A stretch of 20,014 nt of DNA from a virus: positions 1 to 20,014 of IMG/VR virus record IMGVR_UViG_3300030109_001549. One strand, given 5' to 3'. The notes under the pieces are model-generated. The model worked only from the letters and a program-made list of their open reading frames with translations. It searched no databases and had not been told where the DNA came from. Positions 17,429 to 19,363 of this stretch are shown here, piece after piece (the stretch's first letter is position 1; each line of letters starts with the position of its first letter). A program made the position numbers and the translations under genes.

Positions 17429-17824
17429 TTAACATTTCCATCTACGTCTAGCAGCTTTACCTCTTTCACCGGTCCAACCTTTTGATCTAGCGCAGAATGA
17501 TTTTCTACGTTTAGCAGCTTTACTACCTGGTTTAACTTTACCAGTTACTGCTGTTTTTAATTTACTACCTGGATTTTTACGTTTATACTCCGCAACACCT
17601 TTAGCTGTCATCCCAGCACCTTCTTTTACAGTACGGAAGTTTCTACCTTTACCTTTAGTAGTTTTTCTAGGTTCATTACTTTTTTTACGTTTCTTTTTAA
17701 ATAAAGGTGAACCGTCATTTCTACGTCTACCACAACTAGTAACAGGGAAAGGATTACCTTCCTGCGTATATTGTTTTATAGGTGATGCTTCAAACATGTC
17801 GTTTTGTGCTTTACTTCCTGGCAT
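17429..17824 (-). CDS. Basic phage protein with EGAGMTAKGV motif
   Basis: A 131-residue, very basic protein. The stretch VKEGAGMTAKGVAEYKRKNPGSKLKTAVTGKVKPGSKAAKRRKSFCARSKGW (about 68-118), given here in segments, is highly conserved in marine phages as I remember it: EGAGMTAKGV, NPGSKLKTAVTGKV and RRKSFCARS. The N-terminal part is Pro/Gly-rich, with MPGSKAQNDMFEASPIKQYT. The C-terminal end is extremely arginine/lysine-rich (GERGKAARRRWKC). No enzyme motif is visible. Its start shares one base with the preceding stop (TAATG). A nucleic-acid-binding or virion-internal role is inferred from charge and company. Confidence 0.7.
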   Translation of the reverse strand: MPGSKAQNDMFEASPIKQYTQEGNPFPVTSCGRRRNDGSPLFKKKRKKSNEPRKTTKGKGRNFRTVKEGAGMTAKGVAEYKRKNPGSKLKTAVTGKVKPGSKAAKRRKSFCARSKGWTGERGKAARRRWKC

Positions 17825-18060
17825 TAGCTTTCTTTTTTAGTTCCTTTACCGTCGTTACCTCTATTAGCTTTAACAGATTTAAACCTACCATCTTTGTGAT
17901 CATAGTCCTTACCTTTTATATTCTTACCAGCCTTGATAGCAGCTCGTCTTTTACGTTGGTTCTCTGCTTTCTTTTTCTTTCTTGCAAATGTTTTAGCAAA
18001 CGCTAAATCTCTTTTCTTTTTAGCAGCACTTGCTTTAGGTGATAGTTTCTGTTTAGCCAT
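17824..18060 (-). CDS. Basic phage protein with DYDHKDGRF motif, first gene of the minus-strand module
   Basis: A 78-residue, lysine-rich protein. It has MAKQKLSPKASAAKKKRDLAFAKTFARKKKKAENQRKRRAA as a helical basic N-terminal half (given by segments) and KGKDYDHKDGRFKSVKANRGNDGKGTKKE as C-terminal half. The DYDHK-x-G-x-F-x-SV-x-x-NRGN pattern is familiar from other marine phage basic proteins. It is the most upstream gene of the late module and lies next to the divergent gene-free region, so its leader should contain the module's first promoter. Coupling to the next gene is by TAATG. Function unknown; nucleic-acid contact is likely from charge. Confidence 0.7.
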   Translation of the reverse strand: MAKQKLSPKASAAKKKRDLAFAKTFARKKKKAENQRKRRAAIKAGKNIKGKDYDHKDGRFKSVKANRGNDGKGTKKES

Positions 18061-18736: not shown

Positions 18737-18976
18737 ATGAAAAATGTATTAAATGTATTAAAAAGCAAAAGATTTGTAGTAAGAAAGTCACTAATTGGTA
18801 AAAATCAAATTATAACTTTCACTAACAAAAAAGGTGATGAAATCACTTACAATCACGACAAAGTATTTGAAATAATGAAAGATACTTTAACTAACTTACC
18901 ATGCTGGACAAAGTATAAGTCATACACGGCAACTAATAACATACCAATGATTTGTAGAGGTAAAGAGTTAGTATAG
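18737..18976 (+). CDS. Small basic protein, 79 residues
   Basis: A 79-residue protein (MKNVLNVLKSKRFVVRKSLIG, then NQIITFTNKKGDEITYNHDKVFEIMKDTLTNLPCW). A positively charged N-terminal helix is followed by a beta-hairpin-like region and a helix, with two cysteines near residues 56 and 73. No signal peptide. The leader AATAAAAATTAAAATT before the ATG fits the genome's style, and promoter copy 3 lies 37 bases upstream of it. Position in the plus-strand module with small genes suggests an early-expressed host-interaction or regulatory protein, without recognised homology. Confidence 0.62.
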   Translation: MKNVLNVLKSKRFVVRKSLIGKNQIITFTNKKGDEITYNHDKVFEIMKDTLTNLPCWTKYKSYTATNNIPMICRGKELV

Positions 18977-19156
18977 CCAAAAGCAGAGTCAAAATAGCTC
19001 CATGTGAAGTGCTGAGTAGCACAGAGTGACTCAAGTCGTAGTTACACTTTGTTTAGCGACTTATAAAAAATGCGAACAAGTAGACTAGGTAGAAAGGCGG
19101 CCGAATAATCGAGTGGGTTCAAGTCCCACACTACCACTAACAAATAAATTAAAACT
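18977..19156 (+). ncRNA. Structured noncoding stretch with tRNA-like T-arm
   Basis: About 180 bases without a gene, in which several stems are visible: GTGCT/AGCAC with loop GAGT (19009-19022), AAGTCG/CGACTT (19033-19038 with 19057-19062), and the T-arm GTGGG-TTCAAGT-CCCAC (19113-19129). The T-arm matches the tRNA GGTTCAAGTCC box exactly. It is flanked by GGTAG (19088-19092) and CTACC (19131-19135), forming an acceptor-like stem; alternatively AGTCGTAGT (19034-19042) pairs with ACTACCACT (19130-19138) with one mismatch. I could not build a canonical cloverleaf: no D-loop GG or anticodon arm fits. It may be a minimal tRNA-like RNA, a decayed tRNA, or an attachment core copied from a host tRNA end. 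Confidence 0.4.
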
Positions 19157-19363
19157 ATGTGTAAATTTGAAAGAACTTTAAACAAAATCTATTTAATAAG
19201 CGGTTTTATACTGTTAATAGTAGTAATAATGTGTATGACTTCTTGCGGTAGCGCAAACTATGTCACTAGTTGTCCTGCTTATGCAAATGTTGAAACTCAC
19301 CAACAATTACAAGCAATGTCTAGTGATAGCTCAAATTGTGAAAATTGCGACGAGATTGACTAA
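19157..19363 (+). CDS. Small lipoprotein, 68 residues
   Basis: A 68-residue protein with a clear export signal: a short basic N-terminus (MCKFERTLNK), a hydrophobic core IYLISGFILLIVVIMCM (about 11-27) and a lipobox MTSC-GS with the lipidated cysteine at about residue 30. The mature part is only about 39 residues, contains VTSCPAYANVETHQQL and a CENCD pair near the end, and is acidic. Lipobox plus a short cysteine-containing C-P-A-Y tail resembles small lipoproteins of Bacteroidota. A phage gene in an early-type module that makes a surface lipoprotein could block superinfection by related phages, but that is inference. Its leader follows the tRNA-like element directly. Confidence 0.66.
   Translation: MCKFERTLNKIYLISGFILLIVVIMCMTSCGSANYVTSCPAYANVETHQQLQAMSSDSSNCENCDEID

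Follow-up and report, generated by a model that had tools for sequence, protein, structure and literature searches.

The stretch of DNA analyzed here, which we call the window, is IMG/VR virus record IMGVR_UViG_3300030109_001549 (20,014 nt, positions 1-20,014). PHROG profiles name terminase, portal, GroEL and GroES-like proteins in the window, and its terminase resembles those of Flavobacterium and Cellulophaga phages, the best match being MW202828 at 64%. The isolated elemoE phage is organized similarly: one strand carries small genes and the other the late genes. A structured RNA sits among small plus-strand ORFs of the window, between ORF79 and ORF68; the late block begins to be seen ∼0.9 kb away, where its nearest minus-strand ORF lies (17824-18060). 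The phages that carry such RNAs are probably a large, uncultured group of phages of Bacteroidota. The features at the locus are as follows.

18737..18976, + strand: ORF79, small protein gene 5' of the RNA, 79 aa, no known family
18986-19139, + strand: whole RNA, consisting of hairpin P1/P2, then an H-type pseudoknot, then a tRNA-like structure (TLS)
18986..19032, + strand: P1/P2 hairpin, with P1 at 18986-18990/19028-19032 and P2 at 18997-19004/19020-19027
19005-19019, + strand: cap loop of P2, 15 nt
19033..19081, + strand: H-type pseudoknot, with S1 at 19033-19038/19057-19062 and S2 at 19046-19054/19074-19081
19063-19073, + strand: A-rich loop of the pseudoknot
19088..19139, + strand: TLS with acceptor-like stem, GG-containing D-loop and T-arm, from the sequence and a 58-copy alignment
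19088-19092/19131-19135, + strand: acceptor of the TLS, GGTAG/CTACC, 5 bp
19093-19112, + strand: D-loop, the 20 bases between acceptor and T-arm, with GG
19113-19117/19125-19129, + strand: T stem, fully paired (100% of cells) across 58 copies
19118-19124, + strand: T-loop
19136-19139, + strand: tail ACTA
19157..19363, + strand: ORF68, lipoprotein-like (lipobox by eye), start 21 nt past the acceptor

The T-arm GTGGG-TTCAAGT-CCCAC noticed in an initial annotation is real and lies at 19113-19129, and GGTAG and CTACC enclose it as had been read. The alternative enclosure suggested there, AGTCGTAGT/ACTACCACT, finds no support: AGTCG instead pairs with CGACT (19057-19061) in a stem that covaries in relatives and the ACTACCACT side varies between copies. 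The TLS has neither a D stem nor an anticodon arm. The anticodon stem is therefore missing, as had been noted, but an equivalent of the D-loop, also thought to be missing, does exist, and the sequences of a D-loop/T-loop elbow are present. A sixth acceptor layer in the window would be A-A. On the 5' side, the window's own P2 has mismatches in two of its eight pairs, and we take its cap loop to resemble a sarcin-ricin/loop E motif. The loop of S1 (ACTT-n-GTTT) pairs with GAACAAGT just 5' of the acceptor, and in the window a single base is bulged out of S2. A kissing interaction of the P2 cap loop with the loop of the pseudoknot would suit several copies by eye; it fails in copies L001, L004, L006 and L011 and was rejected.

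Standard searches do not classify this RNA. ARAGORN calls no tRNA or tmRNA in the window, a tRNA-model search of the 20-kb record finds neither, and Rfam has no match at gathering score in the window for any family, including tRNA (RF00005), tmRNA and the plant viral TLS families. At E≤10, Rfam returns a single chance-level match on 18900-19250, at 13.6 bits against a cut-off of 50. These results bear out the earlier reading that there is no cloverleaf: set against RF00005, the RNA has the T-arm and elbow sequences of a tRNA and lacks the cloverleaf and the score. Its folding energy is ordinary relative to shuffled sequences (z of -0.65 and -0.80). Because the minimum free energy was uninformative, comparison of relatives had to decide.

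An exact 25-mer identified one relative and the 20-mer GACTTATAAAAAATGCGAAC eleven viral contigs, and two further patterns brought the total to 16 copies besides the window. A covariance model built from eight copies (R1) finds one strong copy in each of the 15 IMG/VR records searched whole (15/15), with a second, weak match (E 0.147) in one of them. It gives two weak matches on MW202828 (E 0.03 and 0.67), no match in phi4:1 and nothing strong in the elemoE stretches searched. The copies share P1, P2, AAGTCG/CGACTT, the A-rich stretch and a TLS with a 5-7 bp acceptor, D-loop and T-arm. The one Lak phage blastn match inspected is an ordinary tRNA, and a weak candidate match of the model in Lak-A1 (21.7 bits, E 0.013) covers mainly the T-arm. 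A very loose pattern gave at least 109 new loci (L040-L148); none of the 76 that were modelled (L040-L115) scored at E≤1, a level reached in that run by L039, which a separate pattern had found. Four matches to a strict TLS descriptor among the 109 resemble, by eye, parts of ordinary tRNA genes.

The stems of the RNA are maintained by compensatory change. When the strands of 17 copies were aligned by hand, 38 of 40 cells paired in P1 (8 distinct strand pairs), 85 of 88 in P2 (11 distinct strand pairs) and 58 of 60 in the acceptor (10 distinct strand pairs), values as high as these occurring in 0 of 5000 shuffles; the T stem paired in 28 of 30 cells (6 distinct strand pairs), which 18 of 5000 shuffles equalled. 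The pseudoknot core is highly conserved among these first copies, and AAGTCG/CGACTT, being near-invariant, is uninformative in that set. A larger alignment comprises 58 matches at E≤1e-4 from 85 chosen sources (earlier hits and part of a second search described below). It is fitted to the structure of the model and thus biased towards it, and kinship inflates its shuffle tests; with these qualifications, 95.7% of its cells pair, compared with 62.2% in shuffles (0/500 as high), and 394 cells show changes on both sides, compared with 106.5. Sliding the partner strand by 1-3 columns lowers pairing to 25-50%. Changes on both sides occur in 24 of 25 pairs, which is weak evidence alone given a shuffle mean of 21.3 and 2 of 500 shuffles reaching 24. 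By helix, pairing is 91.3% for P2, 95.1% for S1, 98.8% for the acceptor and complete for the T stem, and all six pairs of S1 change on both sides.

The second helix of the pseudoknot was assessed separately, with S1 chosen independently of S2. S2 pairing is kept despite changes, as in GC-n-TTGTTT/GAACAAGC, ACTTCGTTT/GAACGAGT and AGTATTC/GAATACT. Over 57 distinct loop/tail sets the S2 score is 350.0, compared with 320.2 (sd 6.7, max 343.5) after loops and tails have been swapped among the sequences, and 0 of 2000 swaps score as high; the margin is moderate because the strands are identical in many copies. Among 47 representatives the values are 286.0 and 257.0 (0/2000 as high). S1 followed by an A-rich tail is present in 61 of 88 TLS units. 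The strict TLS descriptor, which demands an acceptor of at least 6 bp and so is failed by the window's own 5-bp acceptor, matches 18 sites when run on the family records (761 kb) and no site in five shuffled versions of them. We consider the structure of the RNA to be well supported by these comparisons, and treat its mechanism below as an inference from them.

A survey covered 80 distinct TLS that lie behind ORF79. The D-loop contains GG in all 80 and is 9-13 nt long in 57, the T-loop is TTCGATT in 66, and the acceptor is 6 bp long in 61, with 38 different acceptor sequences; a crude position count finds G3-U70 in none of the 80. The tail is ACTA in 46 and ACAA in 15, so that A-C-T/A-A accounts for 61 of 80. 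A list of true tRNA genes from these loci has 24 entries, one with an odd anticodon; by reading, 21 of the 24 carry the same tail (the exceptions are in L175, L180 and L248). The 3' edge of the TLS looks like that of the phages' own tRNA genes. The perfect T-arm could in principle belong to a tRNA gene in decay, or to a copy of the 3' end of a host tRNA that served as an attachment site, both of which had been raised at the outset. Compensatory change in the acceptor and T stems contradicts a remnant, the variety of acceptors lends no support to an attachment core, GG and the T-loop are kept throughout, and the pseudoknot and ORF79 are constant partners. With the 58-copy alignment largely refuting it, such an origin is extremely improbable. 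The description of a minimal tRNA-like RNA, offered alongside it, fits.

Other tRNA-like sequences were observed in these phages. A second class of TLS away from ORF79 has a 7-8 bp acceptor, the D-loop CTACGGTACTAARGT and a T-arm (L165 1194(-), L175 5285(-), L234 ∼4092, L242 ∼5598 and L267 ∼5085); its five acceptors all differ and all pair, and in two records it lies beside or near tRNA-Met. Another group of tRNA-like genes has an TGGGCGTG or GGGCGTG-type acceptor, with 42-66 nt of varied sequence replacing the D and anticodon arms. The sites of this group are L214 4959, L225 5995, L229 5829, L231 5432, L246 5544, L247 5532 and L272 5172, of which ARAGORN calls L231 alone, with an odd anticodon. 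By eye, L159 (∼7700-7490, minus strand) has a long self-complementary stretch and then a TLS-like element with a 7-bp acceptor, and in Cellulophaga phage phi4:1 (L019, 878-1026) the anticodon loop of one tRNA-like gene seems to harbor a whole tRNA-Ile gene. MW202828 (L021, ∼523-700) has, also by eye, a tRNA-Leu-like gene with a long anticodon-loop insert and then a tRNA-like gene with D-arm and T-arm and without an anticodon arm; ARAGORN finds neither.

The gene upstream of the RNA is the invariant part of its surroundings. All 16 other records (16/16) have an ORF79 homologue upstream of the RNA and on its strand, with 8-136 nt between the ORF79 stop and P2 except in L039 (1066 nt), and the ORF79 stop codon forms part of P1 in G007 and G010. 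ORF68 has homologues in 2 of the 16, and the downstream neighbor is not constant; control of the lipoprotein gene, as first proposed, is therefore unlikely in that form. The AF2 model of ORF79 (pLDDT 87.5) has four strands, two helices and a strand, and a fold search of PDB and BFVD gave no match at E≤0.001. Weak matches were to a Tad2-like protein (E 0.076), a PHROG family (E 0.0071), PADLOC (best E 0.0088, in 1 of 14 members) and a PDB sequence (E 0.0071, with no passing stretch), and we found no convincing toxin or defence match.

These properties bear on whether the RNA acts in trans as a decoy, its pseudoknot for instance for an RNA-guided toxin of the type III toxin-antitoxin kind or its TLS for tRNA-attacking or tRNA-modifying enzymes. 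There is a precedent in a pseudoknot RNA of a phage that imitates the antitoxin ToxI (PMC3475682, in part), the pseudoknot core is strongly conserved in the first 17 copies, and a TLS without an anticodon arm could escape anticodon nucleases. However, there is usually a single pseudoknot per element, the pseudoknot repeats beside a ToxN-like gene that mark a type III antitoxin RNA are absent, ORF79 resembles no toxin or defence protein convincingly, and the coupling to ORF79 is constant. We regard a decoy as unlikely.

A profile of ORF79 detects at least 548 relatives in IMG/VR. Among the best 80 of these at least 548, R1 matches 32 loci at E≤1e-4, and 53 have a five-pair T-arm within 450 nt past the stop. 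A second search, started from a different first sequence, yielded 80 loci, some of them on contigs that the first search had given, and the pooled set contains 241 ORF79-like ORFs, 189 of them distinct and with at least 150 nt downstream. At these 189 ends there is a TLS alone in 62, a TLS with a P2-type hairpin in 26, a P2-type hairpin alone in 11, a hammerhead in 3 and none of these elements in 87, fractions that hold for this set only because its loci were picked by ORF79 similarity. By comparison, 1561 sampled ends of mechanical ORFs have 18 TLS, 4 hairpins and 1 hammerhead. A cleaner count places a TLS at 86 of 183 distinct ORF79 ends, the descriptor finding none at the other 97, and at 42 of 4253 other mechanical ORF ends, where 23 of the 42 lie inside ARAGORN tRNAs. 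The ends of the longest non-overlapping ORFs, a fairer stand-in for genes than mechanical ORFs, have a TLS or tRNA at 35 of 1575, true tRNAs counted in, and Markov-shuffled ORF79 3' regions match the TLS descriptor in 0 of 3780 cases. On some contigs there are two or more ORF79 paralogues, each followed by a different sequence (L224/L300, L195/L345 and L204/L350).

Beyond these uncultured phages, tblastn with three versions of ORF79 against 50,697 phage records gave nothing at E<1, and the RNA has no convincing copy in those records at the sensitivity used. Two scans of bacterial genomes with two patterns of the pseudoknot core gave no matches. We found no published description of this RNA in the open-access literature searched. 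tRNA-like structures are a known kind of element, and the T-arm is part of a structured RNA that is not a tRNA and appears to be undescribed.

In three loci (L195, L204 and L308), a different element occupies the position directly past the ORF79 stop. Hammerhead ribozymes are recognized by CTGANGA and GAAA boxes, three closed stems and an H before the cut. By descriptor, all three loci fit a hammerhead, with CTGANGA and GAAA, three closed stems and the H ahead of the expected cut, the first box lying 8-9 nt from the first base of the stop codon, and their stems differ and yet pair (GTTATA/TATAAC, GATTCA/TGAATC). The descriptor finds just three distinct elements in 1.66 Mb (the window and L149-L353), none in five shufflings and none in 978 kb of other viral contigs; since it finds no others in the window and L149-L353, the single hammerhead among control ends is probably one of these three. 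Two of them recur in overlapping loci L345 and L350. In L195 and L204 the hammerhead does not reach the Rfam gathering score.

The modules also occur in other combinations by eye, with a TLS and no pseudoknot in L214, L215, L252 and L270, a pseudoknot and no TLS in L305, L348 and L351, and two pseudoknot-like units 5' of the TLS in L230 and L239. Stems followed by T-runs are seen in L196, L211 and L221, and the TLS of L203 seems to sit atop a longer stem that is itself followed by a T-run (all by eye). Some known riboswitch folds are pseudoknots with an A-rich third loop, as the pseudoknot here has, and together with the terminator-like stem of L203 this could point to a switch or attenuator that acts in cis, regulating the gene downstream in response to a ligand or a tRNA-binding factor. 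We find this quite improbable, as the downstream genes differ among phages and a T-run after a strong stem is present at 2 of 88 TLS-bearing ends. A further recurrent structured element, GTGACAATTGCC... and later ...TAATGTCACA, lies past ORF79 in L310, L320, L337, L154 and others, and GTGTATAGCA repeats are found behind ORF79 elsewhere (both by eye).

We think it on balance probable that the RNA is the 3' part of the ORF79 message, in which a hairpin and a pseudoknot precede an anticodon-less TLS that is cut by host enzymes, leaving the pseudoknot to guard the end. Host RNase P would cut 5' of the acceptor-like stem and host tRNA 3'-end enzymes would trim the other side of the TLS. The transcript would thereby be split between ORF79 and the next gene, and the pseudoknot would keep exonucleases away from the 3' end thus created on the ORF79 RNA. 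The shape of the TLS fits an RNase P substrate, cleavage itself being a prediction, and its free acceptor sequence and lack of G3-U70 are as expected of a processing substrate recognized by shape. The next start codon is 15-37 nt past the TLS in 59 of 80, so there is something to separate. The hammerheads would cut themselves, and the simplest outcome that ribozyme and TLS could share is that the transcript is severed between ORF79 and the gene that follows. Such a cut would place the pseudoknot at the new 3' end; in the window, its last strand ends 6 bases before the predicted site. Other observations count against processing: the descriptor sees no TLS at roughly half of the ORF79 ends, no CCA is encoded at the TLS, acceptors are 6 bp in most TLS and 5 bp in the window, some pseudoknots lack a TLS, and cutting in L203 would destroy the longer stem that its TLS caps.

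A fairly unlikely variant is that the TLS is retained as the mature 3' end, gains CCA and protects the ORF79 message or aids its translation, as in plant RNA viruses. The order of parts, pseudoknot and then TLS, is the same as at the pseudoknot-plus-TLS ends of plant viral RNAs (PMC10976276, in part), the tandem pseudoknot-like units of L230 and L239 would suit it, and the 3' flank is tRNA-like. Nevertheless, another gene follows closely, so that a downstream cut would still be needed, freely varying acceptors make charging by one synthetase unlikely, and hammerheads at the same place leave no TLS. Extending the processing model, it is plausible, if somewhat less than probable, that these phages punctuate their transcripts with end-making RNA modules, in which anticodon-less tRNA mimics recruit host tRNA-processing enzymes, pseudoknots act as guards, and hammerheads and perhaps terminators can be exchanged for the mimic. 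If true, such modules would do for these viruses what tRNA punctuation does in mitochondria.

tRNA mimicry towards the 3' side of messages is classically associated with plant RNA viruses. The order of pseudoknot and then tRNA mimic is now seen repeatedly in tailed DNA phages, whose messages carry the mimic as a very small elbow, and in three cases a ribozyme substitutes for the mimic. These RNAs offer natural test cases for the minimum that RNase P, CCA addition and tRNA 3' processing require, and for the ways in which phages generate RNA ends. They also illustrate that standard tRNA finders miss tRNA-like RNAs that comparison of relatives uncovers.

Among known systems, the 3' TLS of tobamo- and tymoviruses is alike in having one or more pseudoknots followed by a tRNA mimic at the 3' side of a viral message. 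The phage element differs in lying between genes of a DNA phage rather than at a genome end, and in having a real D-loop/T-loop elbow and a nested acceptor stem where the plant viral acceptor is pseudoknotted; it lacks an anticodon mimic and its acceptors are variable. The tRNA-like domain of tmRNA consists of an acceptor, a D-loop without a D stem and a T-arm, with no anticodon arm, which are the same parts. In the phage RNA, however, the two TLS strands are adjacent, ARAGORN and Rfam are negative, and there is no conserved tag frame: a tag-like reading frame from the ATG at 19070-19072 was rejected, as by eye the frames differ between copies. In mammals, the long RNA MALAT1 has a triple helix and obtains its 3' end by an RNase P cut before a tRNA-like RNA, mascRNA. 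The scheme proposed here is alike in that a structured RNA 3' end would be made by an RNase P cut before a tRNA-like RNA, and differs in being a phage mRNA with an H-type pseudoknot. Model substrates of RNase P, hairpins of acceptor and T-arm, have the same minimal shape as the TLS, and the C4 antisense RNA precursor of phages P1 and P7 is a phage RNA that RNase P cleaves (PMC11143913, in part). In contrast to such model and non-tRNA substrates, the TLS is natural, conserved in many phages and equipped with a D-loop GG and a tRNA-type 3' flank, while its cleavage is a prediction. Theta ribozymes of gut phages, which are HDV-like and cleave no more than 5 nt from a tRNA, are likewise RNA-processing elements tied to tRNAs in phages of Bacteroidota and Bacillota (PMC10879173, in part); in the present RNA, by contrast, a pseudoknot is the partner and a mimic takes the place of the tRNA.
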